Positions 615-58,086 of a stretch of DNA of 64,000 bases are shown here, piece after piece (the stretch's first letter is position 1; every line of letters begins with the position of its first letter). Under the pieces are notes generated by a model that had not been told where the DNA came from, ran no database searches, and saw only the letters and a program-made list of their open reading frames with translations. This DNA comes from Stappia sediminis. GTDB lineage: Bacteria; Pseudomonadota; Alphaproteobacteria; Rhizobiales; Stappiaceae. The position numbers were made by a program, and so were the translations under genes. The stretch spans positions 310,001 through 374,000 of the forward strand of contig NZ_WUMV01000001.1 in assembly GCF_009826895.1 (NCBI RefSeq), given 5' to 3'.

Positions 615-813
615 CGCGGCGGCGCCGGCCGGAACATGGTGATCGTTCAGAAAATGGTGATAAGGACGGATTTGCCGCTAAGTTCCGTTTCGGCCACGTC
701 CGAATTGGGCGATCATGATGAAAATATCCGCCGGGCGTCGCCGGCGTGGTAAAAAACAATCAAGCGGGCGCGGCGCGAGGCTGCGCCCCGCGGTTTTCGA
801 AGGAGAACGGCCC

Positions 814-2298
814 ATGGCCAACTCGTTTCCGGCGGCATCCTTCCTGCAGCGGTTCACAGCGGCTGTGGCCGCGTGCGTGATCGCCGCGGGCCTTGCCGTC
901 GTGCCGCCGGCACCAGCGCTTGCGCACGGGCCCGACAGCGTGCCGGACCTCGCCGAACGGCTTCTCGACGCGGTGGTGAACATTTCCACGGCTCAGACGG
1001 TGACCGCGCGCCGCTCGGTGCCCCTGCCGCAGGTGCCGGAAGGCTCCCCCTTCCAGGAATTCTTCGACGAATTCTTCAACCGCGAAAACCAGAACGGAGA
1101 CCAGCCGCGCCGCGTACAGTCGCTCGGTTCCGGCTTCGTCATCGACGGAACGAAGGGCATCATCGTCACGAACAACCACGTGATCGAGGGCGCCGACGAG
1201 GTTACCGTCAACTTCAACGACGGCTCGAAGCTGCCCGCCGAAGTGCTCGGTTCCGACTCCAAGACCGATCTCGCGGTGCTGAAGGTGGAGCCTGACACGC
1301 CGCTGCCGGACGTAAGCTTCGGCGATTCCGAAGTCCTGCGCGTCGGCGACTGGGTGATGGCGATCGGCAACCCCTTCGGCCTCGGCGGCACGGTGACGAC
1401 GGGCATCGTCTCGGCGCGTAACCGCGACATCAACTCCGGGCCCTACGACAACTACATCCAGACCGACGCCTCGATTAACCGGGGCAATTCCGGCGGGCCG
1501 CTGTTCAACCAGGACGGCGAGGTCATCGGCATCAACACCGCGATCATCTCGCCGTCTGGCGGATCGATCGGCATCGGCTTCGCCATCCCCTCGCAAACGG
1601 CGATGCGGGTCATCGACCAGCTTCGCCAATTCGGCGAAACGCGGCGCGGCTGGCTTGGCGTGCGCATCCAGGAGGTGACGGACGAGATCGCCGAAAGCCT
1701 CGGCATGAAATCCGCCGAGGGCGCGCTTGTCGCCGGCGTCACGGAAGGCGGGCCGGCTGCGGCCGCCGGGCTGGAGCCGGGCGACGTGATCCTGCGCTTC
1801 GACGGACGCAGCGTGCCCGAAATGCGCGACCTGCCGCGCATGGTCGCCGATACGACCATCGGCAAGCAGGTCGAGGTTATCGTCCTGCGCAAGGGCACGG
1901 AAGTGACCGTCATGGTGGAGCTTGGCCGCCTCGAGGAAGCCAACCTCGACGAGGCGGTGGGCACCGAAGGCGAGAAGAAGCAGGCCGAACCCGAAAGGGA
2001 CACCGTGCTTGGCATGGAACTTTCGGAACTGACCGACGAGCTTCGCAAGGAGCACAACATCAACGAGGACGTGAAGGGCGTGCTCGTGGCCAAGGTCGAG
2101 CCCGGCTCCTCGGCGGAGGAAAAGCGGGTGCAGGCCGGCGACGTGATCGTGGAAGTGGCGCAGGAGCCCGTCTCCTCTCCCGCCGACGTGGTCAAGCAGG
2201 TCGACCGGTTGAAGCAGTACGACCGCAAGTCGGCCCTGCTGCTCCTCGCCAACGGACGCGGCGAACTGCGCTTCGTACCGGTGCGGGTGGAAGAGTAA
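814..2298 (+). CDS. degP: Do/DegP-family periplasmic serine endoprotease
   Basis: A 494-residue trypsin-like periplasmic protease for misfolded envelope proteins. A signal peptide (hydrophobic core VAACVIAAGLAVV, cleavage near ALA-HG) is followed by the protease domain with all three catalytic residues: His in NNHVIEGADE, Asp in SKTDLAVLKV and Ser in GNSGGPL. Two PDZ domains follow, beginning near RGWLGVRIQEV and the segment before VKGVLVAKVEPGSSAEE. The ATG at 814 has an AGGAGAA ribosome site 7 bases upstream. An in-frame ATG at 715 would add 33 basic residues before the signal peptide and is unlikely. It follows hflC-DUF2065, the standard order in this order of bacteria. DegQ or MucD would be equally valid names. 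Confidence 0.93.
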   Translation: MANSFPAASFLQRFTAAVAACVIAAGLAVVPPAPALAHGPDSVPDLAERLLDAVVNISTAQTVTARRSVPLPQVPEGSPFQEFFDEFFNRENQNGDQPRRVQSLGSGFVIDGTKGIIVTNNHVIEGADEVTVNFNDGSKLPAEVLGSDSKTDLAVLKVEPDTPLPDVSFGDSEVLRVGDWVMAIGNPFGLGGTVTTGIVSARNRDINSGPYDNYIQTDASINRGNSGGPLFNQDGEVIGINTAIISPSGGSIGIGFAIPSQTAMRVIDQLRQFGETRRGWLGVRIQEVTDEIAESLGMKSAEGALVAGVTEGGPAAAAGLEPGDVILRFDGRSVPEMRDLPRMVADTTIGKQVEVIVLRKGTEVTVMVELGRLEEANLDEAVGTEGEKKQAEPERDTVLGMELSELTDELRKEHNINEDVKGVLVAKVEPGSSAEEKRVQAGDVIVEVAQEPVSSPADVVKQVDRLKQYDRKSALLLLANGRGELRFVPVRVEE

Positions 2299-2322
2299 AC
2301 GTCTGAAACTTTCGGGCTAACG

Positions 2323-2357
2323 AAAACGCCGCTTCCGGACCGGGAGCGGCGTTTTTT
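2323..2357 (+). terminator. Rho-independent terminator after degP
   Basis: An 11-bp inverted repeat (AAAACGCCGCT and AGCGGCGTTTT) with an 11-base loop runs into a T-rich tail. It lies 25 bases after the degP stop. The cyclase gene approaches from the other strand, so it may serve both directions. Confidence 0.85.
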
Positions 2358-2461
2358 GTTTGGGCTGATGGTTGTGCGGCAAGGATATTGCCGAGATATC
2401 GGTTCTGCGCCGATTTCTTGGCGATTGGAATATCCCTTCGGCGAAAAGTGGTTCAAGTCAG

Positions 2462-4555
2462 TCACTGATTGCGCTTTTTCCGCACCGCACGGACGGTTTC
2501 AGGTGCCTTCGAACTCAGCGTCCTTTTTTGTTTGGGCGAATTGTTATGAGACAGGAGGCTTTCCAATGCCCCCTTCAGACTTCTCTCCGCCCGGCGTCGA
2601 TCATCTGCATTCATGGCCTCGACATCCAGTTCAAGGCGAAGATGTGCATGATTTTCTTGAATACGCCGGCGTTCGCGGCCGAGATTCTCGTAGCTGTTGA
2701 CAACCCGGTAGGTCGCCACCGGATAAGCCACGCCTCTCACTTCCGCCATGCCTCGCTCCTCACAGAAGATCGCTTCGCTGACATGCGCGAAGGTTTCGAA
2801 AGAGATCAGGATTTCGCCCGGTTCCGCCATTTCTTCGAGCCGGGCGGCGATATTCACGGCACTGCCGACAATGGTGTAATCCATACGGTCTTCGCTGCCG
2901 AAATTGCCCACGGTGCAGTAGCCCGTGTGGATGCCCATTCGCACTTTCAGCGGCTTTTCAATGCCGGCTTCGCGCCATACGTCCTGAAGTTCCCGCATTC
3001 GGCGACGCATGGCGATCGCCATCATGGCGCAGGCTAGTGCATCGTTCTTTACGCCCGAAGTCTCGGGGTCGCCGAAAAAGATCAGGATCGCATCGCCCAC
3101 ATATTTGTCGATCGTGGCTCCGTGATCGAGAGCGATGCGGGACATCTCGGTCAGGTATTGGTTGAGCAGTTGTGTCAGTTCCTCCGACTCAAGTCGGTCG
3201 GCTGTTTCGGTGAAGCGGGCGATATCCGAGAAAAAGATCGTCAGTTTTTTGCGGCTGCTTGCAACCTTCACTTCCTGCTTGCCGGAAAAAATCGAATCAT
3301 AGACCTGAGGCGAAAGATATTTGGCGAGTTGCTTAGAGAGTTGTTCGAGTGCGCCTGATTTTTCGGCGAGCTTGGTCTCGCGATCGTCTATCACCGCCAT
3401 GTAATGCATCAGCGAGGTTGAGATTTCTCCGATTTCATCCGGGATCGAGTCTGCGAATGTCCGGTCTCGGGTTTCTGCGAATGTACGCAGGGCATCGCGA
3501 ATTCGGTCCAATCTGCCGAATACGCGGCGCTTCAGGACATACCAGATGAAAAAGTTTCCGATACCGAACGCAAGCGCCACAACAAAAATCGAGGCGAGGG
3601 TGAGCCGCGTGGTGTCGTTTACCCGCGCGACTTGCGCCTCAAGTTCATTACTTGCGCGCCAGAACGTATTGCTGGCGCTGCTGAGCAGCCGGTTGGCGAC
3701 AAGCGAATTCTCTTCAGCGAGAGCCTTGATCCTGAATTCGTTCGCCAGTGCCGATGCTTTATCGGAATAGACTTTGTCCTTCTGCCCGGACCAGAACTCG
3801 ACGAATCTCCGAGCGGTGACGACCCGCTCGTCGACATTTTTTGACAACGAGTTGTCGCCGGCCGCAAGTGTCTCGATCAGGACTTGAACATCCGAGTCGA
3901 TCTCGTCCTGGTTATGCGATAGACGGGCGCGGTTAGGATCGAGGAGCAAATTCAGGGTTTTAAGGATGGCCCTGCTCCCGACTTCCCCCACGCGCGCCAA
4001 AAAGATCGCATCACCATCGGGCGCTATCCCTTCCCGCTGCGCGCCCGTGCCTTTACCATCTGACAGGACCTCAAGCAGCCCGCGCAGGAAGATTTCGTGA
4101 TCCTCGAGCCGTTCGCTGATCGCGATCTGTTCACGCACAACATCAGTCAGGGCTGCCAGATTGGCAGTCAGGAGATTTCCATTTTTCCGAAGGGTGTTTG
4201 AGGGGCCCTCATCCCCATACAGTCCGTCGAGTTCCTCGATCAGTGTTCTCTGCGAGTTCTCCTTGTCATTGATGCGAGAAAGTAATGTGTCGAATTCACT
4301 TCGCGAGGGGTTGCTGCTAAGCGCCGGTGCGATTGAACTGGTCGCAGAGGCCTCCTGGGAAAGCTGGGCAAGTTTTACCAATCGAGGGAGAGCGTTATCG
4401 CGCAACTGCGAAAGTTCCGACCGTATTTCGAACAGGCGGACGGTCATCACGATCAGTCCCATCAACACGAGACCCGCGATGCAGGCAAAAATGGCGAATA
4501 ACAGGGTCGAGATGCGCCGTCGCACCCTTGTTTCCACGATGTCGGGGGGCGCCAC
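2462..4555 (-). CDS. Membrane-bound class III adenylate/guanylate cyclase with HAMP
   Basis: A 697-residue sensor cyclase. A short cytoplasmic N-terminus leads into a transmembrane helix (about residues 17-40), a periplasmic helical sensor region of roughly 270 residues, a second helix (about 315-338), a HAMP-like linker, and a C-terminal class III cyclase domain. The domain keeps both metal-binding aspartates, in TIFFSDIARFTE and in YVGDAILIFFGD, and the catalytic segment YTIVGSAVNIAARLEE, so it should be active. It starts at a GTG 12 bases after the stop of the periplasmic binding-protein gene, so the two form an operon. The start lacks a strong ribosome site, which fits translational coupling. 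ATP versus GTP specificity cannot be decided by eye. Confidence 0.88.
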   Translation of the reverse strand: MAPPDIVETRVRRRISTLLFAIFACIAGLVLMGLIVMTVRLFEIRSELSQLRDNALPRLVKLAQLSQEASATSSIAPALSSNPSRSEFDTLLSRINDKENSQRTLIEELDGLYGDEGPSNTLRKNGNLLTANLAALTDVVREQIAISERLEDHEIFLRGLLEVLSDGKGTGAQREGIAPDGDAIFLARVGEVGSRAILKTLNLLLDPNRARLSHNQDEIDSDVQVLIETLAAGDNSLSKNVDERVVTARRFVEFWSGQKDKVYSDKASALANEFRIKALAEENSLVANRLLSSASNTFWRASNELEAQVARVNDTTRLTLASIFVVALAFGIGNFFIWYVLKRRVFGRLDRIRDALRTFAETRDRTFADSIPDEIGEISTSLMHYMAVIDDRETKLAEKSGALEQLSKQLAKYLSPQVYDSIFSGKQEVKVASSRKKLTIFFSDIARFTETADRLESEELTQLLNQYLTEMSRIALDHGATIDKYVGDAILIFFGDPETSGVKNDALACAMMAIAMRRRMRELQDVWREAGIEKPLKVRMGIHTGYCTVGNFGSEDRMDYTIVGSAVNIAARLEEMAEPGEILISFETFAHVSEAIFCEERGMAEVRGVAYPVATYRVVNSYENLGRERRRIQENHAHLRLELDVEAMNADDRRRAERSLKGALESLLSHNNSPKQKRTLSSKAPETVRAVRKKRNQ

Positions 4556-4567
4556 AGCAGGGGCCCG

Positions 4568-5599
4568 CTAACGGAAGGGCGGGGTGTACAACAAGCCGCC
4601 ATCCTTCCAGAGCCGGTTGGCCCCGCGTTTCATCTTCATTTCGCTGCCTTCGCCGAGATAACGATCGAAAATCTCGCCGTAGTTCCCCGCACCCGAGATG
4701 ACATTGCGGGCCCAGTACGGCGACAGGCCTACGGCTTTGCTGCCGGGGCTCTCATCAACTCCGAGGAGCCGGCGTGCGACCGGGTCGCGACTTTCCAGGT
4801 GATCGCGATAGTTCTTGCTCGTGATGCCCTTTTCCTCGGCAAGGATGGTGGCGAAGATCGCCCAGCGAACGACATTCCCCCACATCATATCCATTGCGCT
4901 GACATAGGCGACGAGCGGCTCCTTCGAGATGATCTCGTCGTGCAAGACATAATTGTAGGGGTCGTCCATCGCTGCGGACCGCATAGTCGCCAGCGCAAAC
5001 CGATCCGTGGTGAGCAGGTCGCATCGCCGCGAGAAAAATGCGTCGTTACGGCCTTGCGAAGATTCGAATGCTTCAATGCGCCAGGAAAGGCCATGAAGTG
5101 CAATATAATCCTCAAGATTGCCTATCGTCGTGGTGGCTCGGGATACGCAAACGGTCGCGTCGGAAAGCTCCGTAAGAGCACCTTGAACCGTGCCCCGGTG
5201 CGACATGAAGCCTTGCCCGTCATAGTAAAGCACAGCGGCGGGCGTCAGCTTCAAGGACATGTCCCGGGAGAAGGTCCATGTGACATTCGACACGTAGATA
5301 TCGACTTCCCCTTCGGAGACGCTCTGCAATCCGTAACGGATCAGCGTCGGCGACATTTCAACCGCATTGCGGTCGCCAAAGAGCGCAAGTGCCACAACCC
5401 GGCAGAATTCGGGGAAAAATCCCTCATATCCGGTTTCGCCAATACGCGTATCGCCGACAAGACGGTTGCCGATCGCGCATTTTACGTAGCCACGCTCTCG
5501 CACGCGGTCGAGGATACTTTCAGACGCCGCCGTGGCTTCGCCAAATGCTAGCGAAAAAAGAAGTGCTGAGAATACAATAGTAGCCGTGAAAGGTTTCAT
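4568..5599 (-). CDS. Periplasmic amino-acid-type solute-binding protein (family 3)
   Basis: A 343-residue secreted protein. It has a signal peptide (MKPFTATIVFSALLFSLAFG, cleavage near ATA-AS) and then a family 3 binding-protein fold: RVRERGYVKCAIGN, GFFPEFCRVVALALFGD, YGLQSVSEGEVDIYVSN, and a C-terminal GLSPYWARNVISGAGNYGEIFDRYLG segment typical of general L-amino-acid-binding AapJ/BztA proteins. The ATG at 5599 follows a GGGAGGTCG ribosome site; upstream extensions lack a signal sequence. No permease or ATPase gene is nearby. The next gene on the strand is a sensor cyclase with a periplasmic domain, so this protein may be a ligand-presenting subunit for signalling rather than for uptake. 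That role is inference. Confidence 0.87.
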   Translation of the reverse strand: MKPFTATIVFSALLFSLAFGEATAASESILDRVRERGYVKCAIGNRLVGDTRIGETGYEGFFPEFCRVVALALFGDRNAVEMSPTLIRYGLQSVSEGEVDIYVSNVTWTFSRDMSLKLTPAAVLYYDGQGFMSHRGTVQGALTELSDATVCVSRATTTIGNLEDYIALHGLSWRIEAFESSQGRNDAFFSRRCDLLTTDRFALATMRSAAMDDPYNYVLHDEIISKEPLVAYVSAMDMMWGNVVRWAIFATILAEEKGITSKNYRDHLESRDPVARRLLGVDESPGSKAVGLSPYWARNVISGAGNYGEIFDRYLGEGSEMKMKRGANRLWKDGGLLYTPPFR

Positions 5600-6053
5600 G
5601 AACGACCTCCCCGGTTCATCATATTGTAGCACAGGTTATGCATACGAGCGATCCGAGCGCGTCTTGCCAAGAAAAGTGGTTGCTTTTCCTTTATGGGTCC
5701 AGACCCCAGGTCACGTGATCGTACGCGGCGCCGATCCTGAAGGTACAATCTGGCTCGGACGTTCCCGCGTTGATCCTGTTTATTCCGCTCAATTCCAGGA
5801 CCCAGTTGGCCCCCGATGCAGCCAAGCCGATCCGGATTCCGCATGCGCGGGCTACGTACGATTGAACCTTCGGCCCGGCAAGCGCGAGGCAATCGGGCGG
5901 CGAAATTCATCTGTGGCGGGCTCGGAGCTATCGTTCAAATCGTATTCCGCTAACGGCTACTCCGCCCCACTCCCGCCATCCCACCCAAGCCCTCACAGCT
6001 GTGCTACCCTCATTCCGTAACGGCAGATTTCGACTACGGCACGGGAGAAAATC
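5600..6053. other. Intergenic region, no gene seen
   Basis: No open frame here has a ribosome site or recognisable family content. It must hold the promoter of the leftward binding-protein/cyclase operon. The only distinct element is GGGTCCAGACCC at 5695-5706, whose reverse complement recurs at 9406-9417. Confidence 0.5.
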
Positions 6054-6356
6054 ATGACCGCGATGAACATCGTCCGCGCAGTGGTGAAGCCCGGGTGCGA
6101 GGAGGAGTTCCTCAAGATCCACCGGGAAAGGGAACTCGACGGTTTCGAGGGCTTGCGCTTCATGCGCCTGGTGAAGACGGGCGAGCGGGAGTTCATGTTC
6201 GTTGGCGAATGGGAAAGCATGGACGCCCTTGTTGCCGCGCGGCCGGCGATGGTTGAATCGCTCGACAGAGTGCGGCACATGCTGGATGACCTCGGCGGCG
6301 ACCTTGGCGTCACGGACCCGCGCTCCGGCGAGGTTGTCATCGAAAGGCGGCCATAG
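6054..6356 (+). CDS. ABM-type dimeric alpha-beta barrel protein
   Basis: A 100-residue protein with the pattern of the antibiotic biosynthesis monooxygenase (ABM) fold: strand MNIVRAVVKPGCEEEFLKIH, helix, strand GLRFMRLVKTGEREFMFVGEW, then helix ESMDALVAARPAMVESLDRVR. Such proteins are cofactor-free oxygenases, haem-degrading enzymes or proteins of unknown activity, usually dimers. The start at 6054 follows GGGAGAAAATC. It stands alone, 250 bases before the nucleotidyltransferase operon. The substrate is unknown. Confidence 0.7.
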   Translation: MTAMNIVRAVVKPGCEEEFLKIHRERELDGFEGLRFMRLVKTGEREFMFVGEWESMDALVAARPAMVESLDRVRHMLDDLGGDLGVTDPRSGEVVIERRP

Positions 6357-6609
6357 GCGATTTTACCGGGATCGCCGCCAGCGCAAATATCGGCGTGCCT
6401 TGCGGCACCCCGCAAGGCCGAAACCCGAACGGCCACAAGCGGAAACATTCATAATTTTCAGTAACGTTACGGCAATATTCTGCTTTGGCGGAAAGCGCCC
6501 TTGCGGCAAGATAGCGCCTTGGGGCTCGTGCCTGTGCCGCCGCCGATTGCCTGTCACCCGGCGCACGCTGGCGCGCCCTTTCATGCCGGAGTGGGAGGAG
6601 GGATGCGTA

Positions 6610-7584
6610 ATGCCGGCGAGCGCGGCCTGCGCATTTGAAACGCTGATCTCCGCCTTCAACGGCACCCTGCCGCCGGAAGATGCGTGGGACGATGTCATCA
6701 AGACGGCGAACCGCCACCTTGTCGCGCCCGCGCTTTTCGCTTCGCTGCGGGAGAGCGGGCTTCTCCAAGACGTTCCGCAGGAGGTGCGCGCTTATCTGGC
6801 ATTTCTCCACGAACGGAACGAGGAACGCAACCGCCGCCTGCGAGCGCAAGCCGCACAAAGCATCGAGGCGATGAACGCGGCCGGGATCGAGCCGCTTCTT
6901 ATCAAGGGAACGGCTCTCCTGATGCTGCTTGACGATGAGCGCCTGGGAAGCCGGATGATGAGCGACATCGATCTGGTGGTGCCGGAAGCGGACAGGGACG
7001 CGGCGCTGTCGCAAATCGGGCAGCTTGGCTATGCGGCGATTGAGGATTCTTCCGGTCCCCATGCGCTGGGAAAGTTCTCCCGCCCGCAAGACGCGGGCGC
7101 GCTCGACCTGCACAGCCGCCCTCCCGGGCCGCAGGCCCTGTTTGCGAAAGATGCGCCGGACGCGCGCCGCACGGTCGGGCAGGGGAAATTGCGGTTCGTC
7201 GTCCCCACTTCCGAGGAATGGATCGTGCAGCTTGTCGCCCACGACATGATCCGTGATCGCCGCCTGTTCACCGGGATTGTCGATCTTCGCAGGCTTCTTG
7301 ATTGCCGCGAGATCCTTTCCATGGGCAGGACGGTGGATTGGGAGAGGGTTCGCCACCGGCTTTCATCGCCGATGCTGGCGCTCGCCCGCGACGTGTTCTT
7401 CCTCAATCTGGAGCGCTTCGCGGGTGTGCCGGTCAGCGGGCGCAAGGCGGGCGCTCTCGCGCGCCTTTTCCATCGCCGTCAACTGGCGATCGAATGCAAT
7501 TCCTCGTTTCGCCGAATGGATGCCCGCGCGATTTCAACGCTGCTTGCGGTCTGGAGAGGAGCGCGCGGGATGAAACCGCAATGA
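6610..7584 (+). CDS. Nucleotidyltransferase family protein (NTP_transf_5-like)
   Basis: A 324-residue protein with the nucleotidyltransferase core motif GIEPLLIKGTALLMLL followed by RMMSDIDLVVPEADRDAA. The paired acidic residues of DIDLVV are the expected metal ligands. The rest is helical and resembles members found in RiPP-like and HprK/PqqD gene sets. The ATG at 6610 has an excellent GGAGGAGGG site; a longer frame reaches back to 6202 but lacks one. The stop overlaps the kinase start by ATGA, so the two are coupled. Products of this family probably transfer a nucleotide or phospho-group, but no substrate is established. Confidence 0.78.
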   Translation: MPASAACAFETLISAFNGTLPPEDAWDDVIKTANRHLVAPALFASLRESGLLQDVPQEVRAYLAFLHERNEERNRRLRAQAAQSIEAMNAAGIEPLLIKGTALLMLLDDERLGSRMMSDIDLVVPEADRDAALSQIGQLGYAAIEDSSGPHALGKFSRPQDAGALDLHSRPPGPQALFAKDAPDARRTVGQGKLRFVVPTSEEWIVQLVAHDMIRDRRLFTGIVDLRRLLDCREILSMGRTVDWERVRHRLSSPMLALARDVFFLNLERFAGVPVSGRKAGALARLFHRRQLAIECNSSFRRMDARAISTLLAVWRGARGMKPQ

Positions 7585-8780
7585 CGAACGACTCGCTCCG
7601 CAGGATGGCACCAGCCCCGGAAAACGGCTTCCTGCCTGCAAATGGCGTGCGGTACTGCAGGCTTGGCGAGGATTGCCTTGTCTTCGACGAGGCGGCTCAG
7701 GCGATTTCCCGTCTCGATCCGCTTTCCGGTGCGCTCTGGGAAGCGCTTGCTGCGGGCCGCGCACGAGAGGAAATCGCGCGGGACCTTGCCGATGCGCTCG
7801 GGCGCGGCATTGGCGAGGCGGAAGCCTTCATCGCCGCCTGTTTCGACGAGTGGAGGGCGCGGGGACTGCTGAATGGCGGGGAAGGCGAGCGGGCGGACGC
7901 GCCGGCGGGACCCGTCGGCCGCATGGCCCCAAGGCGGAAGGTTTCCGCCGGCAAGGCCTACCTGATTGGCGGGCTGACTTTTTCCGTGAGTTTTCCGGAT
8001 GCCGAGACTTTTTCCGCCTGGGAGGCGGTGGCCGGTCATATGCGAACCGGCGCGTCCGGCAGGGGTGCCATCGCGATCTCCGTGCTGAGGGATGGTGCCG
8101 GATACAGGATCGACCATCCGGGCAGAACGGAAAGGGGGCTTGAGGACGCGAGTGCGGTTGCCGTCCATCTGAAGGAACAGGTGCTGCGCATCATTCTGGC
8201 GGAGACGGTCGGCGGATTCGCGCTTCACGCCGCCGCGCTCGAACTTGATGGAGCGGCCATCCTGATTGCCGGAGGCTCGGGCCGGGGCAAGACGACGCTT
8301 GCCGCCGCCCTCCACGCCAAAGGGCTTCCTGTTATCTCCGACGACGTGGTGCTGATCGAACCCGCGCGGCTCGCCGTTGGCGGATTGGCCTTCGCCTTCG
8401 CGGTGAAAACGGGCGGTGCCGGCGTGCTGGATCCGCTGTCTGGGGGACTGTCCACCGAACGGGAATTTCTGCGCCCGGACGGCAAGATGGTGAAATACCT
8501 GCGTCCGCGCCGCTGGTCGGCGGGTGCGGCCAGGATTGGGGCGATCGTCTTCCCGCGCTTTACGCCCGGCCACCCTTGCACAATCGCACCCTGCACCAGG
8601 GCCGACGCGCTTACGACGCTGTTAAGCGAAGCGGTGAACACGGACCACCGGCTTTCGCGCGAAGGATTTGCAGCGTTATGCGCCTTGCTCAAGGATGCCG
8701 ATTGCCTCGTCGCCGATCATGGCGATGCCGCGGAGGCTTCGCGCCGGCTGCTGGTCCGGCTTGATGATGGACCGGCATGA
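7581..8780 (+). CDS. PqqD-HprK fusion: peptide-binding domain plus HPr-kinase-like P-loop kinase
   Basis: A 399-residue two-domain protein. Residues about 20-97 form a PqqD-like domain (LVFDEAAQAISRLDPLSGALWEAL, then a helical part), the fold that binds leader peptides in RiPP systems. Residues about 120-390 resemble HPr kinase/phosphorylase: FALHAAAL near 213-220, a P-loop GGSGRGKTTL at 231-240, and the acidic pair in VISDDVVLIE at 252-260. The PTS HPr motif context is absent. Usually these are two genes (PqqD-like and HprK-related) beside a nucleotidyltransferase, in the cassette sometimes labelled the HPr-rel-A system; here they are fused. Coupled by ATGA to the nucleotidyltransferase. The substrate is unknown. 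Confidence 0.82.
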   Translation: MTNDSLRRMAPAPENGFLPANGVRYCRLGEDCLVFDEAAQAISRLDPLSGALWEALAAGRAREEIARDLADALGRGIGEAEAFIAACFDEWRARGLLNGGEGERADAPAGPVGRMAPRRKVSAGKAYLIGGLTFSVSFPDAETFSAWEAVAGHMRTGASGRGAIAISVLRDGAGYRIDHPGRTERGLEDASAVAVHLKEQVLRIILAETVGGFALHAAALELDGAAILIAGGSGRGKTTLAAALHAKGLPVISDDVVLIEPARLAVGGLAFAFAVKTGGAGVLDPLSGGLSTEREFLRPDGKMVKYLRPRRWSAGAARIGAIVFPRFTPGHPCTIAPCTRADALTTLLSEAVNTDHRLSREGFAALCALLKDADCLVADHGDAAEASRRLLVRLDDGPA

Positions 8781-8821
8781 AACCTGCCTGTTCAGGATGG
8801 TTCCGCCAGAGCCGTTTATTC

Positions 8822-9061
8822 TCATTTGGACAGGCCAGGGGGGCCTGAATGCTCGTGGTTCTTGTCGCCATAGCCCCAACCCGGCTTGCCGCCGGACCCG
8901 GCGATGGCCGGAGAGTTCATGGTCGTATGAAGCAGGAGCGTTACCGCCGGAGGCGTGAAGGCCGCGAAACGGCCAGCGCGCGCGAGAAACTCCCGACGCC
9001 CCGGATCAGCTTGATCTGAAGAACCGGCTTTGTCGGTTGACTGGGCAGACTTGTTACACAC
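8822..9061 (-). CDS. Small protein with Tat-type signal and short Gly-rich mature peptide
   Basis: A 79-residue protein facing the PqqD-HprK gene tail to tail, 41 bases apart. Its N-terminal part is polar. A twin-arginine signal follows (GRREFLARAGRFAAF, hydrophobic stretch PPAVTLLLHTTMN) with a signal-peptidase site SPAIA-GS, leaving a mature peptide of about 25 residues rich in Gly, Pro, His and Lys (KPGWGYGDKNHEHSGPPG). The GTG at 9061 has GGAG nine bases upstream. An in-frame TTG at 9094 would lengthen it but is weaker. I infer it may be a substrate or partner of the neighbouring PqqD-HprK/nucleotidyltransferase pair; nothing in the sequence proves that. Confidence 0.65.
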   Translation of the reverse strand: MCNKSAQSTDKAGSSDQADPGRREFLARAGRFAAFTPPAVTLLLHTTMNSPAIAGSGGKPGWGYGDKNHEHSGPPGLSK

Positions 9062-9416
9062 CGCTGAATACTCCTGCAAACATAAGTGTTTCAATTTATA
9101 CTCGGGAAGGCTCGGTTGCGAGACAGGAAAAACTGAAGAGATATAGTTTGATGCGAAATAGAAAAACTATTCCCATCCAATCTCGTTGGCTGAGGTCTTT
9201 CGATTTGCCGTATTGATGGAAAAATTGAAATAATATAGAAGTAATTCCGATCGAACTCGAAGCGAATTAAATTCAGCACGTTAAATTAATAGATCCGGCT
9301 TGCCGCACGGTTCCGAAAGCCAGGCCAAGGGCAGCCGAAAGCGGACGTTCGGGGCGGATATTGCCAGTCGCAGCGCTTTCGAAAATGAAGCCTTCTCGAG
9401 CCTCAGGGTCTGGACC
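9062..9416. other. AT-rich intergenic region between the Tat peptide and serB
   Basis: About 9100-9290 is much more AT-rich than its surroundings and probably carries the promoter of the leftward Tat-peptide gene. No convincing gene is present. The 12-base motif GGGTCTGGACCC at 9406-9417 touches the serB stop codon. Confidence 0.45.
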
Positions 9417-10313
9417 CTAATCCCGCGCCGCAAATTCACCGACGGAATAGCCCTGAAGATAGAGCAGGGCCGTCAGGTCGCCAAAGTCGATGCGCGCATC
9501 CGCCTGTTCGGCGACCCTGGGCTTGGCGTGATAGGCAACGCCGAGGCCGGCAAGCTCGATCATGGCAAGATCGTTCGCCCCGTCGCCGACGGCAAGGGTC
9601 TCGTCCAGATCCAGGCCCTTTTCGCCTGCAAGCTCCTGCAGGCGTGCCCGCTTGGCATCACGCCCGAGGATCGGCTCGGCGACCTTGCCGGTCAGTCTGC
9701 CGTCGTCCGTCAGAAGCGTGTTGGCGCGGTTCTCGTCAAAGCCGATCTCAGCCGCGATATGTGTCGTGAAGGCGGTGAAGCCGCCGGAGACGAGTGCGCA
9801 ATAGGCTCCGTTCGCGCGCATGGTGGCAACGAGCGTGCGCGCGCCGGGCGTCAGCGTGATGCGGTTTTCGATGACGCTTGCGATCACCGAGGCTTCGAGC
9901 CCGGCGAGCAGGGCCACGCGCTCGCGAAGGGCGGGCTCGAATTCGATCTCGCCGCGCATGGCGCGTTCGGTGATGGCCGCGATGCGGTCCTTCAGGCCAA
10001 GCTCGGCGGCGAGTTCGTCGATGCATTCCTGGCCGATCATGGTGGAATCCATGTCGGCAATGAGAAGACGCTTGCGCCGTGCAGCACCCGTCTGCGCGAA
10101 AACGTCGATCGGGCGCTCCTTCACGGCCTCGCGCATGTTCGCCGTCGTCTCGTGGGGCGGCGTGCCGTCCACCAGCGCAAGATCGACGGCGATACGCTCA
10201 TTGAGCACACGCGCTTCACCGGCTATGGAGAAGTGTTTTCCGAGCCGCGCAATGAGCTGGTCGTCGATTGCCTTCGCGTTCGGTTCGGAAACGAGAGTGG
10301 CGATCAATGGCAT
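9417..10313 (-). CDS. serB: Phosphoserine phosphatase
   Basis: A 298-residue enzyme for the last step of serine synthesis (phosphoserine to serine). An N-terminal ACT-like region (MPLIATLVSEPNAKAIDDQL) is followed by a HAD phosphatase domain: the nucleophile motif LLIADMDSTMIGQECIDE, motif II in CALVSGGFTAFTTH, and motif III/IV in VGDGANDLAMIELAGLGVAYHAKP. The start at 10313 lies back to back with miaA, a divergent arrangement common in Hyphomicrobiales. A longer frame exists upstream but would run through the divergent promoter. Confidence 0.94.
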   Translation of the reverse strand: MPLIATLVSEPNAKAIDDQLIARLGKHFSIAGEARVLNERIAVDLALVDGTPPHETTANMREAVKERPIDVFAQTGAARRKRLLIADMDSTMIGQECIDELAAELGLKDRIAAITERAMRGEIEFEPALRERVALLAGLEASVIASVIENRITLTPGARTLVATMRANGAYCALVSGGFTAFTTHIAAEIGFDENRANTLLTDDGRLTGKVAEPILGRDAKRARLQELAGEKGLDLDETLAVGDGANDLAMIELAGLGVAYHAKPRVAEQADARIDFGDLTALLYLQGYSVGEFAARD

Positions 10314-10347
10314 GCTGGCGGGTACTCGCGATGGATTTCGGAAAGGC

Positions 10348-11274
10348 GTGAGGGTGAATTTTTCTTCGCTCCTGATAGCGGGGCCGACGGCAAGCGGCAA
10401 GTCCGGCCTGGCATTGAAACTTGCCGAAACGCTGAATGGCGCCATCGTCAACGCCGATTCAATGCAGGTCTACAAGGACCTGCGGGTGCTGACCGCACGG
10501 CCGACCGTGGACGAGGAAAAGCGCGCGCCGCACCTGCTCTACGGACATGTGGATGCCGGGCGCGCCTATTCGGTGGCGCAGTGGCTGGCCGATGCGCAAT
10601 CGGCAATCGCGGATGTCGCCGCCATGGGCAGGCTGCCGATCTTCGTCGGCGGTACGGGGCTTTATTTCAAGGCGCTCACCGAGGGCTTGTCGGAAATCCC
10701 TCCGATCGACGAGGCGATACGCGCGCACTGGCGCGGCGAGGCGCAAAATCTCGGCCGCGAGCAACTCCACCAGCTGCTGGCCGAGCGCGATCCGGAGATG
10801 GCCGAACGCCTGGAGCCCGCCGACACGCAGCGCATCGTACGCGCGCTTGAGGTGATCGATGCGACCGGCCGTTCTCTTGCCGAATGGCAAAAAGCCAGGA
10901 CGGCGCCGCTCGTTGCGCCGGAATCCGCCATTCGCATCGTGCTTGCGCCCGACCGCGCCTGGCTGCACGAGCGTATCAACCGGCGCTTTGCGGAAATGGT
11001 CCAGCAGGGCGCGGTGGAGGAGGCCGTGACGCTCACCGCGCGCGGCCTTGACGCTTCGCTGCCGGCGATGAAGGCAATCGGACTGCGCGAACTGGCAAGT
11101 GCCGATTCAGGCGAGATTTCCCTGGAGGAGGCGACAGAGCGTGCGAAAACCGAGACCAGACGCTACGCGAAACGGCAGGAAACGTTTCTGCGCGGCCAAT
11201 TGAAGGACTGGCGACGCGTGGACCCGCTGGATATTGATATTAAAGGACTATCACGCGAACTCACGAAGGCGTGA
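10348..11274 (+). CDS. miaA: tRNA dimethylallyltransferase
   Basis: A 308-residue enzyme that adds a dimethylallyl group to A37 of tRNAs reading UNN codons. The P-loop is near the start (LLIAGPTASGKSGLAL), followed by the family segment VNADSMQVYKDLRVLTARPT, then YGHVDAGRAYSVAQW and the tRNA-binding C-terminal part with LPAMKAIGLREL and AKRQETFLRGQ. I chose the GTG at 10348; a second GTG at 10354 and an ATG at 10312, which would overlap the serB start, are alternatives. It is divergent from serB. In relatives ilvI-ilvH often follows; here they lie 44 kb away on the other strand. Confidence 0.93.
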   Translation: MRVNFSSLLIAGPTASGKSGLALKLAETLNGAIVNADSMQVYKDLRVLTARPTVDEEKRAPHLLYGHVDAGRAYSVAQWLADAQSAIADVAAMGRLPIFVGGTGLYFKALTEGLSEIPPIDEAIRAHWRGEAQNLGREQLHQLLAERDPEMAERLEPADTQRIVRALEVIDATGRSLAEWQKARTAPLVAPESAIRIVLAPDRAWLHERINRRFAEMVQQGAVEEAVTLTARGLDASLPAMKAIGLRELASADSGEISLEEATERAKTETRRYAKRQETFLRGQLKDWRRVDPLDIDIKGLSRELTKA

Positions 11275-11375
11275 TAATTTGCCGTGCTCGCGTTCACAGA
11301 AATGCCGCAGCGTTGATATATGGATTGCGCGGAAAAAATTGGACGAAACGGAATTGCGTCACCATTTACTCACGA

Positions 11376-11391
11376 TTAGACTTTAGTCTAA
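11376..11391. promoter_or_regulatory. 16-base inverted repeat upstream of the GNAT gene
   Basis: TTAGACTTTAGTCTAA has two perfect 7-base arms around TT. It lies 158 bases before the acetyltransferase start in a 274-base gap with no gene. An operator is plausible, but no regulator is identified. Confidence 0.35.
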
Positions 11392-11548
11392 CTAACGATG
11401 CATCACGCGCCCGTGAGCGGTATAAGGCTGCGAATCGCGTGCCAAGCTGCGAAAATAGATAACCAGAACCCTAACAAGGCCGAATAACGGCCGTAGCCGA
11501 GCGGGACGATTTGGGGAAAGGCTCCACCGCGAGCCAAAGGAGGAATAA

Positions 11549-12091
11549 ATGGAAACTCCGACAATTTTCGAGACGGAAAGGTTGCGCGTTCTCGGTTTCT
11601 CGATGTCGGATCTCCCTCTGTTGAAAGCCCTTCACTCCGACCCGGAAGTAAACCGGCACCTGGTGCCGGGCGACGAGATACAGTCGGACGCGGAAGCGGC
11701 CGAACGGCTCGACAATTTCATTCATAAGCAGGAGCGCTTCGGCTTCGGCCAGTGGAAAGTGGAAACGCTCGACGGCGAATTCGTCGGCCGCGCCGGCTTC
11801 CTCGTATTCGAACAGACCTCCGAAATCGCCCTCTCGATCTGCCTCGGCACGAAGCACTGGGGACAGGGATACGCGTCCGAGCTCGCCCCGAAGTTGATCG
11901 ACTGGTTTTTCGAGAACACCTATTACACGCATCTCATCGCCTTCGTGCTCGCCGGAAACGAACCGTCACGCCATGTGATGGAAAAGGCCGGCTTCACCTG
12001 CACCAAGCGCGTGCTGATCGACGGAAGGCCCTACGACAGGCTGCAGGTGCTTGCGCCGGCTATCGCGCGCCGCTATCCCATGACGGCATGA
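11549..12091 (+). CDS. GNAT family N-acetyltransferase (RimJ/RimL-like)
   Basis: A 180-residue acetyltransferase of the RimJ/RimL subgroup: ETERLRVLGFSMSDLPLL at the N-terminus, the acetyl-CoA-binding region around LSICLGTKHWGQGYASELAPK, and NEPSRHVMEKAGFTCTKR near the C-terminus, a standard signature for enzymes acetylating N-terminal amines of proteins or small amines. The start has a textbook AAAGGAGGAATAA site. It stands alone, 36 bases before a NUDIX gene on the same strand. The substrate cannot be told. Confidence 0.85.
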   Translation: METPTIFETERLRVLGFSMSDLPLLKALHSDPEVNRHLVPGDEIQSDAEAAERLDNFIHKQERFGFGQWKVETLDGEFVGRAGFLVFEQTSEIALSICLGTKHWGQGYASELAPKLIDWFFENTYYTHLIAFVLAGNEPSRHVMEKAGFTCTKRVLIDGRPYDRLQVLAPAIARRYPMTA

Positions 12092-12126
12092 GCCTTGGGT
12101 AATCTCGACGCATCCCGAAAGCATCC

Positions 12127-12828
12127 TTGTTGATCGAGCTTGTGCCTGTCAGACAACTCGCGGTCCGCCTGACGGGCGCGGCATGGCGTTTCGAAGCCGA
12201 AAACGCGGAAAAGATCGATGCGCATTGGCAGAAGCTGACGGCTGGAAATCCGCATTTGTGGAACGGCCGCGTGATGAAGCTTGCAAGCTTCGAGATTGAC
12301 GGCGGCGTGTTTCGCGGCTCGATGGTGGAAGCCTCCTACGCGGCGTTCCTGGCCTGGCGCGACTGGAATTATCCCGACCCTCATATTCGAAACCTTTTCG
12401 GCTCCGCCGTCATCCGCGCGCGCGGCGGAGAGCTGGTGTTCGGCAAGATGGCCGGCCATACGTCCACGGCAGGCCAGGTCTATCCGCCCGGAGGCAACCT
12501 CGATCCGGACGACCTGCGCGAGGACGGCGAAGTGGACGTGGCCGGCTCAATCGTCAGGGAGCTTGGCGAAGAGACGGGGCTGGATGCGGGCGAAGCATTG
12601 ACGCACTCGACCTTCGCACTCTTCGACGGGCCCAGGATCTCGATCTCCCGCCTGTTCGAATTTCCCTATTCGGCAGCCGATATCGTGGCAAGGATCGACG
12701 AGCACAACGCCCGCGAGGAACGCCCGGAACTGGAAGAGGCAATCGTCCTTGCCAAACCTTCCGACGCCGACGGGCTGACCATGCCGCCATTCGCACGCGC
12801 TCTCGCGGACCGGCTGCTGGCAAAATGA
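12127..12828 (+). CDS. NUDIX hydrolase
   Basis: A 233-residue NUDIX protein. The box is present as GEVDVAGSIVRELGEETGLD, with the catalytic REXXEEXG core intact; the preceding glycine (PPGGNLDPDDLRED) sits further away than in the minimal box, a small insertion. An N-terminal part of about 90 residues precedes it, as in larger members that cleave nucleotide derivatives or CoA. The start is taken as TTG 12127; TTG 12130 and GTG 12142 are alternatives, so the N-terminus is uncertain. It follows the GNAT gene closely and may be co-transcribed. Confidence 0.8.
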   Translation: MLIELVPVRQLAVRLTGAAWRFEAENAEKIDAHWQKLTAGNPHLWNGRVMKLASFEIDGGVFRGSMVEASYAAFLAWRDWNYPDPHIRNLFGSAVIRARGGELVFGKMAGHTSTAGQVYPPGGNLDPDDLREDGEVDVAGSIVRELGEETGLDAGEALTHSTFALFDGPRISISRLFEFPYSAADIVARIDEHNAREERPELEEAIVLAKPSDADGLTMPPFARALADRLLAK

Positions 12829-12916
12829 TTTGCCCCTGTTCTTGACGCTGGAAACGCGGCGGCTGCCATGCAACAGTGCGGCCCGAATTTCAGGATCGAG
12901 AAAGAAGGTTTCGCCG

Positions 12917-13828
12917 ATGGCCCGCCGCTATGCCCTGCTCGACGTTTTCACCAATCGCGCGCTTGCCGGCAACCCGCTTGCCGTGGTGCTGGACGGTGAA
13001 GGCCTTTCTGACGAACGCATGCAGGCTATCGCCAAGGAATTCAACCTTTCGGAGACGGTCTTCGTGCTGCCCGCGGAAAACCCCGCCCATTCGGCGAAGG
13101 TGCGGATCTTCACGCCAGGGCGCGAGCTTCCCTTCGCCGGGCATCCGACCGTCGGGACCGCGATCCTGCTGGCGCACGAGCGCTTCGGCGACGTCGAGGG
13201 AGATGCCGATGCCGTCGTCGTGCTGGAGGAGAAAATCGGCAACGTACGCTGCGGCGTGGTGCTGAAGGGCGGAGCCGCCGGGTTCGCGGAATTCGACGTG
13301 CCGAAGCTTTCCAGCCCAAGCATGCCCGTCGGCGCGAAGGAGCCGATCGCGGCCGCCCTTGGCCTGTCCCCGCATGAAGTCGGGTTCGAAAACCACGTGC
13401 CTTCCTGCTTCGAGGCGGGCGTGCCCTTCGCGTTCATTCCCGTCGCGAACCTCGATGCCCTGTCTCGCGCCAAGCCGCAGATGCAGGACTGGGACGGCGC
13501 CTTCGCAGCCGAACCGCACCGCGACGTCTACGTCTATTGCCGGCAGACGACGGCGCATGATTCCGCCTTTTCCGCACGCATGTTCGCGCCCACGATGGGC
13601 ATTGTCGAAGACCCGGCGACGGGCGCGGCGGCAGCCGCTTTCGCCGGCGTCGTCCGCCATTTCGACGAGCTTCTGGACGGCACGCATTTCATCCGCATCG
13701 AGCAGGGCTACCACATGGGCCGCCCGTCGCTGATCGATCTCGAAATCGATCTCGACAACGGAAAGCTTCACGGTGTGCGCATCGGCGGGCAGGCGGTCGT
13801 CGTCGCGCGCGGCGAGCTTTATCTTTGA
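12917..13828 (+). CDS. PhzF family isomerase/epimerase-like protein
   Basis: A 303-residue protein with both halves of the PhzF/diaminopimelate-epimerase-like fold: LLDVFTNRALAGNPLAVVLDGE at the start, the catalytic Glu region FNLSETVFVLP, then LPFAGHPTVGTAILL, and in the second half EDPATGAAAAAFAG. Named members isomerise phenazine precursors, but most chromosomal copies have unknown substrates and no phenazine genes are here. The ATG at 12917 follows GAAAGAAGG. It lies 89 bases after the NUDIX gene on the same strand. Confidence 0.88.
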   Translation: MARRYALLDVFTNRALAGNPLAVVLDGEGLSDERMQAIAKEFNLSETVFVLPAENPAHSAKVRIFTPGRELPFAGHPTVGTAILLAHERFGDVEGDADAVVVLEEKIGNVRCGVVLKGGAAGFAEFDVPKLSSPSMPVGAKEPIAAALGLSPHEVGFENHVPSCFEAGVPFAFIPVANLDALSRAKPQMQDWDGAFAAEPHRDVYVYCRQTTAHDSAFSARMFAPTMGIVEDPATGAAAAAFAGVVRHFDELLDGTHFIRIEQGYHMGRPSLIDLEIDLDNGKLHGVRIGGQAVVVARGELYL

Positions 13829-13982
13829 GGCGGAGTATCTTGCTTTGCCGCAAGGGATGCGCTACCAGTCTTTGCGTTAACGCTTTTCTAGCGTTTGCGG
13901 CCGACCATCTTGCGGCCGATTTCGCTCACCGGGCGGAATTCGAAACAGGCAAGCGCCAGAGCCAAGGACTTGAGCACGAGCG

Positions 13983-14099
13983 ATGATCGCCAAAGGTCAC
14001 ATTGCAGGTTCCAAAACGAACGCAATTGACGCGATCCGTGCGCGCGCGCTTGGCCGCGACCTCCTCCTACTCGGCGACCTCCTCCTTAGATGCCCCTGA
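13983..14099 (+). CDS. Leucine-rich leader peptide upstream of leuA
   Basis: A 38-codon frame ends 142 bases before leuA. Near its end it reads Leu-Leu-Leu-Leu-Gly-Asp-Leu-Leu-Leu-Arg-Cys-Pro-stop (14061-14099), seven leucine codons in nine, mostly CTC, with one CTA and one CTT. This is the hallmark of a leader peptide on which ribosomes stall when charged Leu-tRNA is low, controlling the biosynthetic gene downstream. The first possible start is ATG 13983, because a stop precedes it in frame. A hairpin overlaps the stop codon. It is too short to have been kept by chance as a protein gene; the regulatory reading is inference. Confidence 0.72.
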   Translation: MIAKGHIAGSKTNAIDAIRARALGRDLLLLGDLLLRCP

Positions 14100-14139
14100 G
14101 CGTCGGCTGACCCAATAGTCGAGGACGGGCGCTTAGGGG
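14093..14139 (+). promoter_or_regulatory. Hairpin overlapping the leu leader stop codon
   Basis: CCCCTGAGCG (14093-14102) pairs with CGCTTAGGGG (14130-14139), ten pairs with one G-U. It covers the leader stop codon, so a stalled or terminating ribosome would change whether it forms. No clear T-run follows, so it may be an anti-structure or act by another mechanism rather than as a simple terminator. Confidence 0.5.
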
Positions 14140-14241
14140 ATGAATAACGTTTCACCCGACAGATTTTCGCGCCCCGCCCTGATTGCCCAGGGATGATCAA
14201 GGCTCCGGCGGCGGCGCAGGCAGCTTGAGGAAGTTCGATCC

Positions 14242-15816
<1,575 letters not shown>

Positions 15817-15846
15817 GGCAGTTCTACGTAGATAGCCAGCTATAAA

Positions 15847-15873
15847 AAAGGCCCCGGAAATTCCGGGGCCTTT
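15847..15873 (+). terminator. Terminator between leuA and the pirin gene
   Basis: AAAGGCCCCGGAA pairs with TTCCGGGGCCTTT around a single-base gap, flanked by A-rich and T-rich tracts on each side. It can serve leuA on the plus strand and the convergent pirin gene on the minus strand. Confidence 0.85.
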
Positions 15874-15894
15874 CGCTTTCGCTTCCGCCGGGCC

Positions 15895-16797
15895 TCACCG
15901 AATGAACGTGCCGGCCCTCAGTTCGTTGAAGGCCTGGGCGAGTTCCTCGCGCGTGTTCATGACGATGGGGCCGTGCCAGGCGACCGGCTCGCGGATCGGC
16001 GCGCCGGAAACGAGCAGGAAGCGGATGCCTTGCTCGCCCGCCTGAACGACGACTTCATCGCCAGTGTCGAAGACGACGAGCGTGCGGTTGCCGCTTTCAT
16101 CGCGGATGTTCAGCTCTTCGCCCTCGAATTCCTTTTCCGTCAGCACGCCGAAGGGCTTCGATGCATCGCGGAAGGTGCCGGACCCGTCGAAAATATAGGC
16201 GAAGGCCTTGCGGTAGGTGTCGACCGGAAAGGCCTTGCGCTTGCCGGCGGGCACGAAGATATCGAGATACTGCGGCTCGGCTGCAATGCCGTCGACCGGC
16301 CCGCGCTTTCCCCAGAACTCGCCGCAGACGACGCGCACTGAGGTGCCGTCATCATCGACGATGACGGGAATGTCGGCGCCCTTGACGTCCTGATAGCGCG
16401 GCTCGGTCATCTTCAGCGAGGAGGGCAGGTTCGCCCAGAGCTGGAAGCCGTGCATGCGGCCTTTCTCGTCTCCCTTCGGCATCTCCTGATGGAGAATGCC
16501 GCGACCGGCTGTCATCCACTGCACGTCGCCCGCGCCGAGCGAACCGGCGTTTCCAAGGCTGTCGCCATGGTCGACGGTGCCAGCAAGGACATATGTGATC
16601 GTCTCAATGCCGCGATGCGGATGCCAGGGGAAGCCGGCCTTGTAGTCCTGCGGGCGCTCGTTGCGAAAATCGTCGAACAGCAGGAACGGATCGGCAAGAT
16701 CGGGATCGCCGAAACCGAAGGCGCGGTGAAGATGTACGCCGGCACCTTCCAGCGTGGGCTGGGCGCTGCTCAACTGCTTGACGGGGCGGATGGACAT
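15895..16797 (-). CDS. Pirin family protein
   Basis: A 300-residue bicupin. The N-terminal cupin carries the pirin metal-binding pattern: DPFLLFDDFRNE, FPWHPHRGIETITYVLAGTVDHGDSLGNAG with the His ligands, and WMTAGRGILHQEMP. The C-terminal cupin ends with FLLVSGAPIREPVAWHGPIVMNT. Pirins act as iron-dependent regulators or as quercetin 2,3-dioxygenase-like enzymes; which applies here cannot be said. The ATG at 16797 follows AGGAGAC; the frame extends further upstream but without a ribosome site. It shares its strand with the M56-M23 gene 115 bases upstream. Confidence 0.92.
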   Translation of the reverse strand: MSIRPVKQLSSAQPTLEGAGVHLHRAFGFGDPDLADPFLLFDDFRNERPQDYKAGFPWHPHRGIETITYVLAGTVDHGDSLGNAGSLGAGDVQWMTAGRGILHQEMPKGDEKGRMHGFQLWANLPSSLKMTEPRYQDVKGADIPVIVDDDGTSVRVVCGEFWGKRGPVDGIAAEPQYLDIFVPAGKRKAFPVDTYRKAFAYIFDGSGTFRDASKPFGVLTEKEFEGEELNIRDESGNRTLVVFDTGDEVVVQAGEQGIRFLLVSGAPIREPVAWHGPIVMNTREELAQAFNELRAGTFIR

Positions 16798-16912
16798 GGG
16801 CTGTCTCCTGATTTCACTTGAAGCCAATGTAGGGCGGAAAGTGCCCGGCTTACAGGTGGGCAGGGGGAACGGTATGTTCACCAGCTGCGAACGATACCAT
16901 TCCCGGCCATAT

Positions 16913-57393: not shown

Positions 57394-57476
57394 CTTTTCT
57401 TTCCCTGGCCTGTCCCGCCTGGCCTTTTCATGGTTGGCGGAACTAATCTGCGTTTGGTCGATCTGGTTCAGGCAAT

Positions 57477-58010: not shown

Positions 58011-58086
<76 letters not shown>

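Follow-up and report, generated by a model that had tools for sequence, protein, structure and literature searches.

A recurring gene set in rhizobia and other proteobacteria joins a small twin-arginine-signal peptide to an RRE-kinase fusion and a nucleotidyltransferase

A 64,000-nucleotide stretch of the Stappia sediminis genome (contig NZ_WUMV01000001.1, positions 310,001 to 374,000; hereafter the window) carries two coupled genes, for a nucleotidyltransferase and for a PqqD-type RiPP (ribosomally synthesised and post-translationally modified peptide) recognition element (RRE) fused to an HprK-like kinase. Facing them is a gene for a 79-residue peptide with a twin-arginine translocation (Tat) signal. 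This set of exported peptide, RRE-kinase and nucleotidyltransferase recurs in rhizobia and other proteobacteria, and it probably constitutes a RiPP-like peptide-phosphorylation and export system. The genes co-occur across genomes, the peptide leader is conserved whereas the core varies, a leader motif and a Ser residue are conserved, the N-terminal half of the fusion has an RRE fold and the catalytic residues are intact. From these sequences we infer binding, phosphorylation, further tagging and export of the peptide. New here are a leader that doubles as a Tat signal, an RRE fused to the kinase and precursors scattered over the genome.

Results

The first-pass annotation of the window had reported this gene set, and we confirmed it. 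The nucleotidyltransferase gene (324 residues, PF14907 NTP_transf_5; 6610..7584, + strand) overlaps at its stop the start of the 399-residue fusion gene (7581..8780, +). Residues 15–99 of the fusion form the RRE, or PqqD, domain (7623..7877, +), and residues 115–399, delimited by alignment and structure, form a kinase of the HprK/PEPCK type (7923..8777, +), HprK and PEPCK having a shared fold. The precursor gene (8822..9061, − strand) is convergent with the enzyme genes and begins with GTG. Its product reads as a Tat-type signal, GRREFLARAGRFAAFTPPAVTLLLHTTMNSPAIA, followed by GSGGKPGWGYGDKNHEHSGPPGLSK, the predicted 25-residue core (8825..8899, −) after a predicted cleavage at an AIA site. 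The RRxFL motif (here RREFL, with the twin arginine at residues 22–23; 8993..8998, −), the hydrophobic stretch and an AxA site, the signal-peptidase rule, are all present, making the peptide a Tat substrate by sequence and alignment. A candidate RRE-binding motif, F-T-P-P-A-V (residues 35–40; 8942..8959, −), lies inside the hydrophobic region, and Ser56 (8894..8896, −), the second core residue, is the predicted phospho-acceptor.

The small gene is real. Over the final 59 codons, counting the stop, it differs from its counterpart in the congeneric genome G001 by 22 synonymous and 2 non-synonymous codons. The resulting ratio of non-synonymous to synonymous change (dN/dS) of 0.02 indicates purifying selection and rules out a spurious open reading frame. 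The enzymes likewise appear functional in their key positions: K99-G100, R115 and D119-x-D121 of the nucleotidyltransferase are invariant in a 9-row alignment, as are H216, the P-loop G234-x-G236-K237, D254 and K276 of the kinase in a 20-row alignment. A loss of the P-loop or of the acidic residues, which the first-pass annotation had named as counter-evidence, is thus not seen in the relatives aligned.

The N-terminus of the fusion, a three-stranded sheet with three helices, superposes on the lasso B1/PqqD fold (TfuB1, 6jx3; TbiB1, 5v1u), and the domain range given above follows from that alignment. In a kinase-domain tree, 26 of 27 rows from unfused kinases group together with support of 95/97, and the fused rows fall outside that group, though the dividing branch is weak (64/75). 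A housekeeping HPr kinase was ruled out by the RRE half, the substrate and a score far under the cut-off. For loci from S. meliloti, Ensifer and Parasedimentitalea, databases annotate the kinase as ‘serine kinase’ or ‘hypothetical protein’ and the second gene as ‘nucleotidyltransferase family protein’; the peptide, where its gene is listed (S. meliloti, Ensifer), is a ‘hypothetical protein’.

To place the set in context, 397 genomes of the window organism's order were searched. A fusion counted as full-length when its match to the fusion profile ran from model position ≤35 to ≥375, and 19 of the 397 genomes contain one. Four first-look candidates were scored per genome, so some fusions may be missed, and a match in G162, starting at position 134, was not counted although the gene was classed as fused for the kinase tree. 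A search with just the window peptide found relatives in nine genomes at E ≤ 1e-5, every one with a full-length fusion (9/9); at E ≤ 0.01 the number rose to 22, the 13 extra ones being weak, and 12 of the 22 have the fusion. A profile of 24 leaders returned 16 genomes at E ≤ 1e-6, all among the 19 with the fusion. The peptide is therefore present in 16/19 fusion genomes against 0/378 others (Fisher p = 7e-26) or, by genus, in 11/13 against 0/128 (Fisher p = 1e-14), both p values disregarding kinship above genus level. The 1e-6 threshold was chosen post hoc, from the gap between G095 (1.8e-10, the weakest strong match) and G375 (1.0e-5, the next).

Since every row of the leader profile came from a genome with a fused kinase, the 16/16 figure is partly circular, and more weight is placed on four other results. 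One is the 9/9 of the single-sequence search. Another is G095 and G359, which were absent from the building of the profile yet are matched by it, and which both have the fusion, on another contig or in another place than the peptides. The third comes from named genomes searched with the leader alignment. Of 190 confirmed relatives the 80 best were kept and merged to 78 loci, which belong to Bradyrhizobium, Sinorhizobium/Ensifer, Mesorhizobium, Microvirga, Afipia, Tardiphaga, Rhodopseudomonas, Pararhizobium and some metagenome-assembled genomes. In 38/78 of these leader-anchored loci, fusion and nucleotidyltransferase both lie in the flanking sequence (10 kb at most), and in 28 of the 38 they share the peptide strand. 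The fourth is that all three genomes with peptide-only loci that were tested have a fusion elsewhere (3/3). The co-occurrence of peptide and enzymes in other genomes, which the first-pass annotation had proposed as a check, thus holds in both the profile and the single-sequence searches.

The nucleotidyltransferase is present in 38/38 of the leader-anchored fusion loci; in L236 (Sinorhizobium terangae, 7279-8362, −) it is broken into two reading frames, through decay or sequencing error. BLAST clustering of neighbours over 26 genome groups placed the kinase in 20 and the nucleotidyltransferase in 19, far ahead of the rest. Next came a mixed ABC-transporter cluster (9/26), one member of which, beside a stray peptide (L072), is MsbA-like in its domains. 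Gene order of peptide and enzymes differs between groups, and around the 40 peptide-only loci no cluster except the peptide itself reaches above 7. In the window's own genus, neither peptide nor fusion was found in G002, and in genus g84 G213 has both while its other sampled genomes have neither at these thresholds. Peptide genes also occur on plasmids: Sinorhizobium accounts for 67 of the 86 plasmid records matched, including pSymB of S. meliloti 1021 (L263); the fusion operon of strain Ak57 sits on L264.

Individual loci were then counted in a set of 27 fused and 30 mostly unfused ones, taken from best matches and not at random. A leader-profile match (E ≤ 0.02) lies within about 1.6 kb in 19 of the 27 fused loci read. 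Beyond these 27, three fused loci were taken from other classes: the leader-profile match of L287 is weak (0.0018), L295 has an RR-leader with AYVAPTL, and L288 has an RR-protein on the other strand in which the motif is absent.

The precursors share one design. Pro18, 15 residues past the second Arg, is found in 116 of 117 distinct peptides, and in the 107 of the PP type the RR pair, F5, L6, G10, F12, A13, T16, P18 and Ser36 are invariant (107/107). Ser36, the counterpart of window Ser56, stands two residues past the predicted cleavage site, and position 35, between AxA and Ser, is variable. Conservation averages 0.81 over the leader against 0.34 over the core columns that follow, taken without gapping, which is the leader/core pattern of RiPPs. 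Core length varies from 14 to 128 residues, and a single genome can hold as many as six precursors. Among the cores are the types GNNGxGNGGGDGSPNGK and PGNGWGDKNHIHxGPPG as well as His-rich, Gly-Lys-rich and amphipathic ones; given this spread over His-rich, Gly-Asn-rich and amphipathic sequences, a single pair of enzymes may act on many products. In distant fused systems the Pro often stands in a clear YxxP (AAYVTPAM, AAYMTPAM, AAYVAPAT, AAYAAPAT, KYAAPVA, AAYVAPAM). According to PMC13381572, [Y/W]xxPx[L/V/I/A/F/Y] is the motif that lasso, PQQ and linear polyphosphorylated peptide leaders show to RREs.

Several precursors are unusual. Amphipathic-looking ends such as LPNWLERFLDWLF or DLLEWLERFLSKFF lie beside the enzymes in Bradyrhizobium, Tardiphaga and Rhodopseudomonas loci (L071, L074, L210, L226, L237, L244, L248, L250, L258, L260, L262). 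His-rich cores such as HEHHEHHHHHHH, which might bind metal, occur in Bradyrhizobium loci without the enzymes (L187, L188, L192, L193, L201, L203, L205). Two Cys are conserved in the cores of L104 (11035-11331), L138 (10054-10365) and L139 (7902-8222, −), which also end alike, in NGHSGC or AGHSGC; the last two have no Ser soon past the cleavage site. In L142, three neighbouring precursor-like genes beside the fusion (8185-8448, 8328-8621 and 8700-8867, +) end one or two residues from AxA and are leaders with almost no core. In L146 (G292), four copies of another Tat-like leader family (9073-9546, 13330-13698, 14040-14396 and 15023-15358, −), reading RRQVLK...PSKWVKPVVNAVIPPAHAAAS and close variants, adjoin two HprK-like genes.

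The 30 mostly unfused loci had been meant as negative controls; three of them proved to be fused, which left 27. The window-type leader profile is nearly absent from these 27, with one weak match (L087, 0.0075). Their own RR-leader genes were split into two halves, of 6 and 5 loci, with one profile trained per half: the profile from the 6 found 5/5 of the others, the profile from the 5 found 6/6, and seven further unfused loci were matched by one or both. In total, 18/27 have such a match (E < 0.05; L278-L282, L289, L294, L085-L092, L094, L285, L292), all on the kinase strand and all but one (17) upstream by no more than 400 bp; the other 9 of the 27 have no match at that level, and nothing else in the 57 loci searched was matched at E < 0.05. 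A frequent form of these leaders is RRRxLLKGxAxxxPVIMTLxSGxAxA. Most have a Pro in the hydrophobic stretch, and of 15 leaders parsed correctly, 11 have a Ser 15 residues past that Pro. None of ten such proteins tested reached a Pfam or NCBIfam cut-off. The RR-leader protein is likely the substrate of the catalogued HPr-rel-A system, a substrate named nowhere in the databases and open-access papers searched.

Two features elsewhere in the window are recorded for completeness. A guanylate/adenylate cyclase gene (2462-5632, −) adjoins a solute-binding-protein-like gene, possibly as a sensor pair. The Rhizobiales sRNA Atu_C8 (RF02502, 56.5 bits) lies at 57467-57583 (−), near a tRNA-Lys (58011-58086).

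Comparison with known systems

The catalogued HPr-rel-A system (NCBIfam TIGR04352 for the kinase, TIGR04353 for the PqqD chaperone) consists of the same kinds of protein, and 18 of its 27 unfused loci examined also carry an RR-signal protein beside the kinase. A PqqD partner, here the fused domain, and a nucleotidyltransferase stand beside the kinase in the window, in agreement with the unfused loci and with the three-gene make-up that we take to define HPr-rel-A. The window differs in being fused, not separate, in its shorter substrate and in its scores for both families; as the kinase lies under the TIGR04352 cut-off, we did not file the system there. The SynChlorMet cassette (HprK-like ScmC and PqqD-like ScmD, NCBIfam), compared by family names alone, gives weak family matches of the fused proteins.

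The linear polyphosphorylated peptides (LPPs) of Bacillota (Popov 2026, PMC13381572) combine an RRE, an HprK-like kinase and a nucleoside triphosphate (NTP) transferase with a linear peptide and no cyclase. LppK polyphosphorylates Ser3, and S3A abolishes this; the phosphate stays on the processed product, unphosphorylated precursor is poorly processed, and deletion of LppN has no visible effect (PMC13381572). In the window, too, there are an RRE, an HprK-like kinase, an NTP transferase and a linear precursor, with a Ser just past the leader cleavage site, a conserved N-terminus and a variable C-terminus, and the capsule-gene surroundings of some LPP loci may be listed as a further likeness (PMC13381572). 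In the LPP consensus YxxPxVLxHQxIxFETxxS the Ser comes 15 residues past the Pro, as in the unfused leaders; its final S is presumably S3 of the core, the phosphorylated residue (PMC13381572).

The two nevertheless differ. Instead of that consensus the window has FTPPAV and then the Tat hydrophobic region, so that just the [Y/W]xxPx part is common to both, and more clearly in the distant relatives than in the window. The RRE is discrete in LPPs and fused to the kinase here. LPPs use a SipW-like peptidase, LppS, and an MsbA-like transporter, whereas the window leader is a Tat signal; their hosts are Bacillota, ours Pseudomonadota, with precursors often scattered. Neither a SipW-like peptidase nor an MsbA-like transporter is among the window neighbours scanned (715 to 16881), and no generally conserved peptidase or transporter gene was seen in the relatives, where no profile search for either was made. 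Because the full leader motif differs, we did not file the system as an LPP, but by analogy it may work like one. With LPPs described in 2026 (PMC13381572) and HPr-rel-A already named in NCBIfam, the first-pass statement that the locus is ‘not a known RiPP class’ was too strong. Apart from the LPP paper, none of the open-access papers listed in searches for HprK with PqqD, for an HprK-related kinase or for RiPP or PqqD with twin-arginine describes such a system.

Lasso peptide tailoring offers another parallel. For paeninodin and pseudomycoidin an HprK-like kinase and a nucleotidyltransferase act on a precursor Ser; in pseudomycoidin PsmK adds phosphate, and PsmN, the nucleotidyltransferase of such a cluster for which a phenotype is reported, then adds hexoses to the phospho-Ser (PMC9266682). 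That Ser lies at the core end, whereas in the PP type it lies at the core start. The lasso B1 proteins TfuB1 and TbiB1 have an RRE of the same fold. A lasso peptide was rejected, as no B2 protease or asparagine-synthetase-like cyclase is among the same window neighbours, a local and not a genome-wide scan.

Discussion

The first-pass idea of a peptide-modification system is well supported by co-occurrence, by the invariant P-loop and acidic residues and by the RRE-type leader motif. Phosphorylation inside the cell before Tat export is the most likely course and our leading hypothesis from the sequences. The RRE half would bind the precursor through F-T-P-P-A-V in the hydrophobic part of the leader, as motif and fold suggest. 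The tethered HprK-type kinase would then phosphorylate the invariant Ser just past the future cleavage site, as LppK does on Ser3, and the nucleotidyltransferase may further decorate the phosphate, perhaps with a sugar or nucleotide, for which PsmN is a precedent. Finally the RRE would release the leader, which is also the Tat signal, the modified peptide would be exported by Tat, and signal peptidase would cut at AxA. As for the tag proposed by the first-pass annotation, phosphate or nucleotide, phosphate stands as part of this hypothesis, while nucleotide lacks direct support: PsmN adds hexoses (PMC9266682), and loss of LppN is silent (PMC13381572).

Tat-signal chaperones exist as a concept, and an RRE that releases the leader for Tat would double as one, holding the peptide until it is modified. 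A Tat signal in the RRE groove suggests that the RRE gates export. For the exported peptide a cell-surface or envelope role is our guess: sugar-activating and sugar-transferase genes lie near several loci (no background comparison), LPPs occur in a capsule setting (PMC13381572), and together these point to the envelope.

Several observations weigh against this phosphorylation-and-export reading. Both halves of the fusion fall under every curated cut-off: the RRE part scores 19.7 bits against 23.4 for PF05402 and 19.6 against 35 for TIGR04353, and the kinase 85.8 bits against 200 for TIGR04352, its best family match. Ten of the 22 genomes found with the single peptide, all at E ≥ 1e-4, have no full-length fusion; 33 of the 49 genomes reached by the leader profile, weaker matches up to E 0.01, are outside the 19 fusion genomes; and 3 of those 19 have no leader-profile match at E ≤ 1e-6. 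Eight of the 27 fused loci read have no such match nearby at E ≤ 0.02 (L083, L096, L101, L135, L136, L137, L141, L143). Five of these sit on short contigs (L096, L101, L137, L141, L143), in L136 and L143 further RR-type proteins are encoded near the enzymes, and for L083 and L135 peptides occur at other sites of the genome (G121, G347). As its first residue the motif has Phe in the window and Val (V-T-P-P) in 102 of the 107 PP-type peptides, not Tyr or Trp, and Cys or Ala in L138, L139 and L104. Pro-to-Ser spacing is 18 in the PP type, against 15 in LPPs, and the Ser near the cleavage site is absent in L136, L138, L139, L140, L169, L170 and one of two L082 peptides. We also know of no precedent for a hydrophobic Tat region bound in an RRE groove.

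Other explanations were weighed against the same evidence. HprK proper is a reversible kinase/phosphorylase, and the RRE-kinase might be a regulator whose reversible phosphorylation holds or releases the precursor, the exported peptide being unmodified and the nucleotidyltransferase acting on another substrate. A phosphate on the conserved Ser could affect signal peptidase, and the silent LppN deletion fits this too, but the nucleotidyltransferase is kept as tightly as the kinase (38/38 loci, DxD invariant in 9 rows) and the LPP phosphate stays on a product that is poorly processed without it (PMC13381572), so we consider a purely regulatory role fairly unlikely. It is unlikely, too, that surface polysaccharide is anchored to or primed on the modified peptide, which would then be an envelope component with sugar attached by way of phospho-Ser and nucleotidyltransferase: no polysaccharide gene is among the window neighbours scanned, and the widest neighbour cluster in the 40 peptide-only loci reaches just 7, with no enrichment test against background made.

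The leader could instead be conserved just because it serves a family of small proteins as signal peptide or membrane anchor, with the RRE not its receptor. Tat signals are short and similar, and the L142 genes with almost no core would suit such a function; conservation, however, extends far beyond RRxFL, to the residues invariant in 107/107 peptides, strong matches occur only in genomes with the fusion, and the Pro is at the same place in 0/7 other Tat-like signals from the fetched loci, a small control in which two (L085, L136) may be precursors. This makes the proposal very unlikely. That a small Tat protein with no link to the kinase operon has come to lie next to it by chance, as the convergent orientation and the changing gene order might allow, is scarcely credible: this idea is contradicted by co-occurrence over 11 genera, by adjacency in 38/78 loci and by the joint absence of peptide and fusion from G002.

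Beyond phosphorylation and export at the window locus, the unfused loci, with their same-strand RR-leader genes (18/27) and the Pro-to-Ser count of 15 (11/15) that LPPs share, bring HPr-rel-A into the picture. We tentatively propose, as a possibility, that RiPP-like peptides and small proteins exported by Tat form one class across Pseudomonadota, in which the signal doubles as the RRE-binding leader. The RRE-kinase would be a chaperone that holds back its client from Tat for as long as a Ser at a set distance awaits phosphorylation and decoration, and the class would supply the missing substrate of the widespread HPr-rel-A system. If true, this would give that family a substrate and a testable mechanism, and would join RiPP leader recognition with Tat signal proofreading, two fields that do not meet in the papers searched. 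It would, moreover, draw attention to numerous exported but sparsely annotated peptides of rhizobia (in Bradyrhizobium, Sinorhizobium and Mesorhizobium), among them those of S. meliloti, a tractable model.

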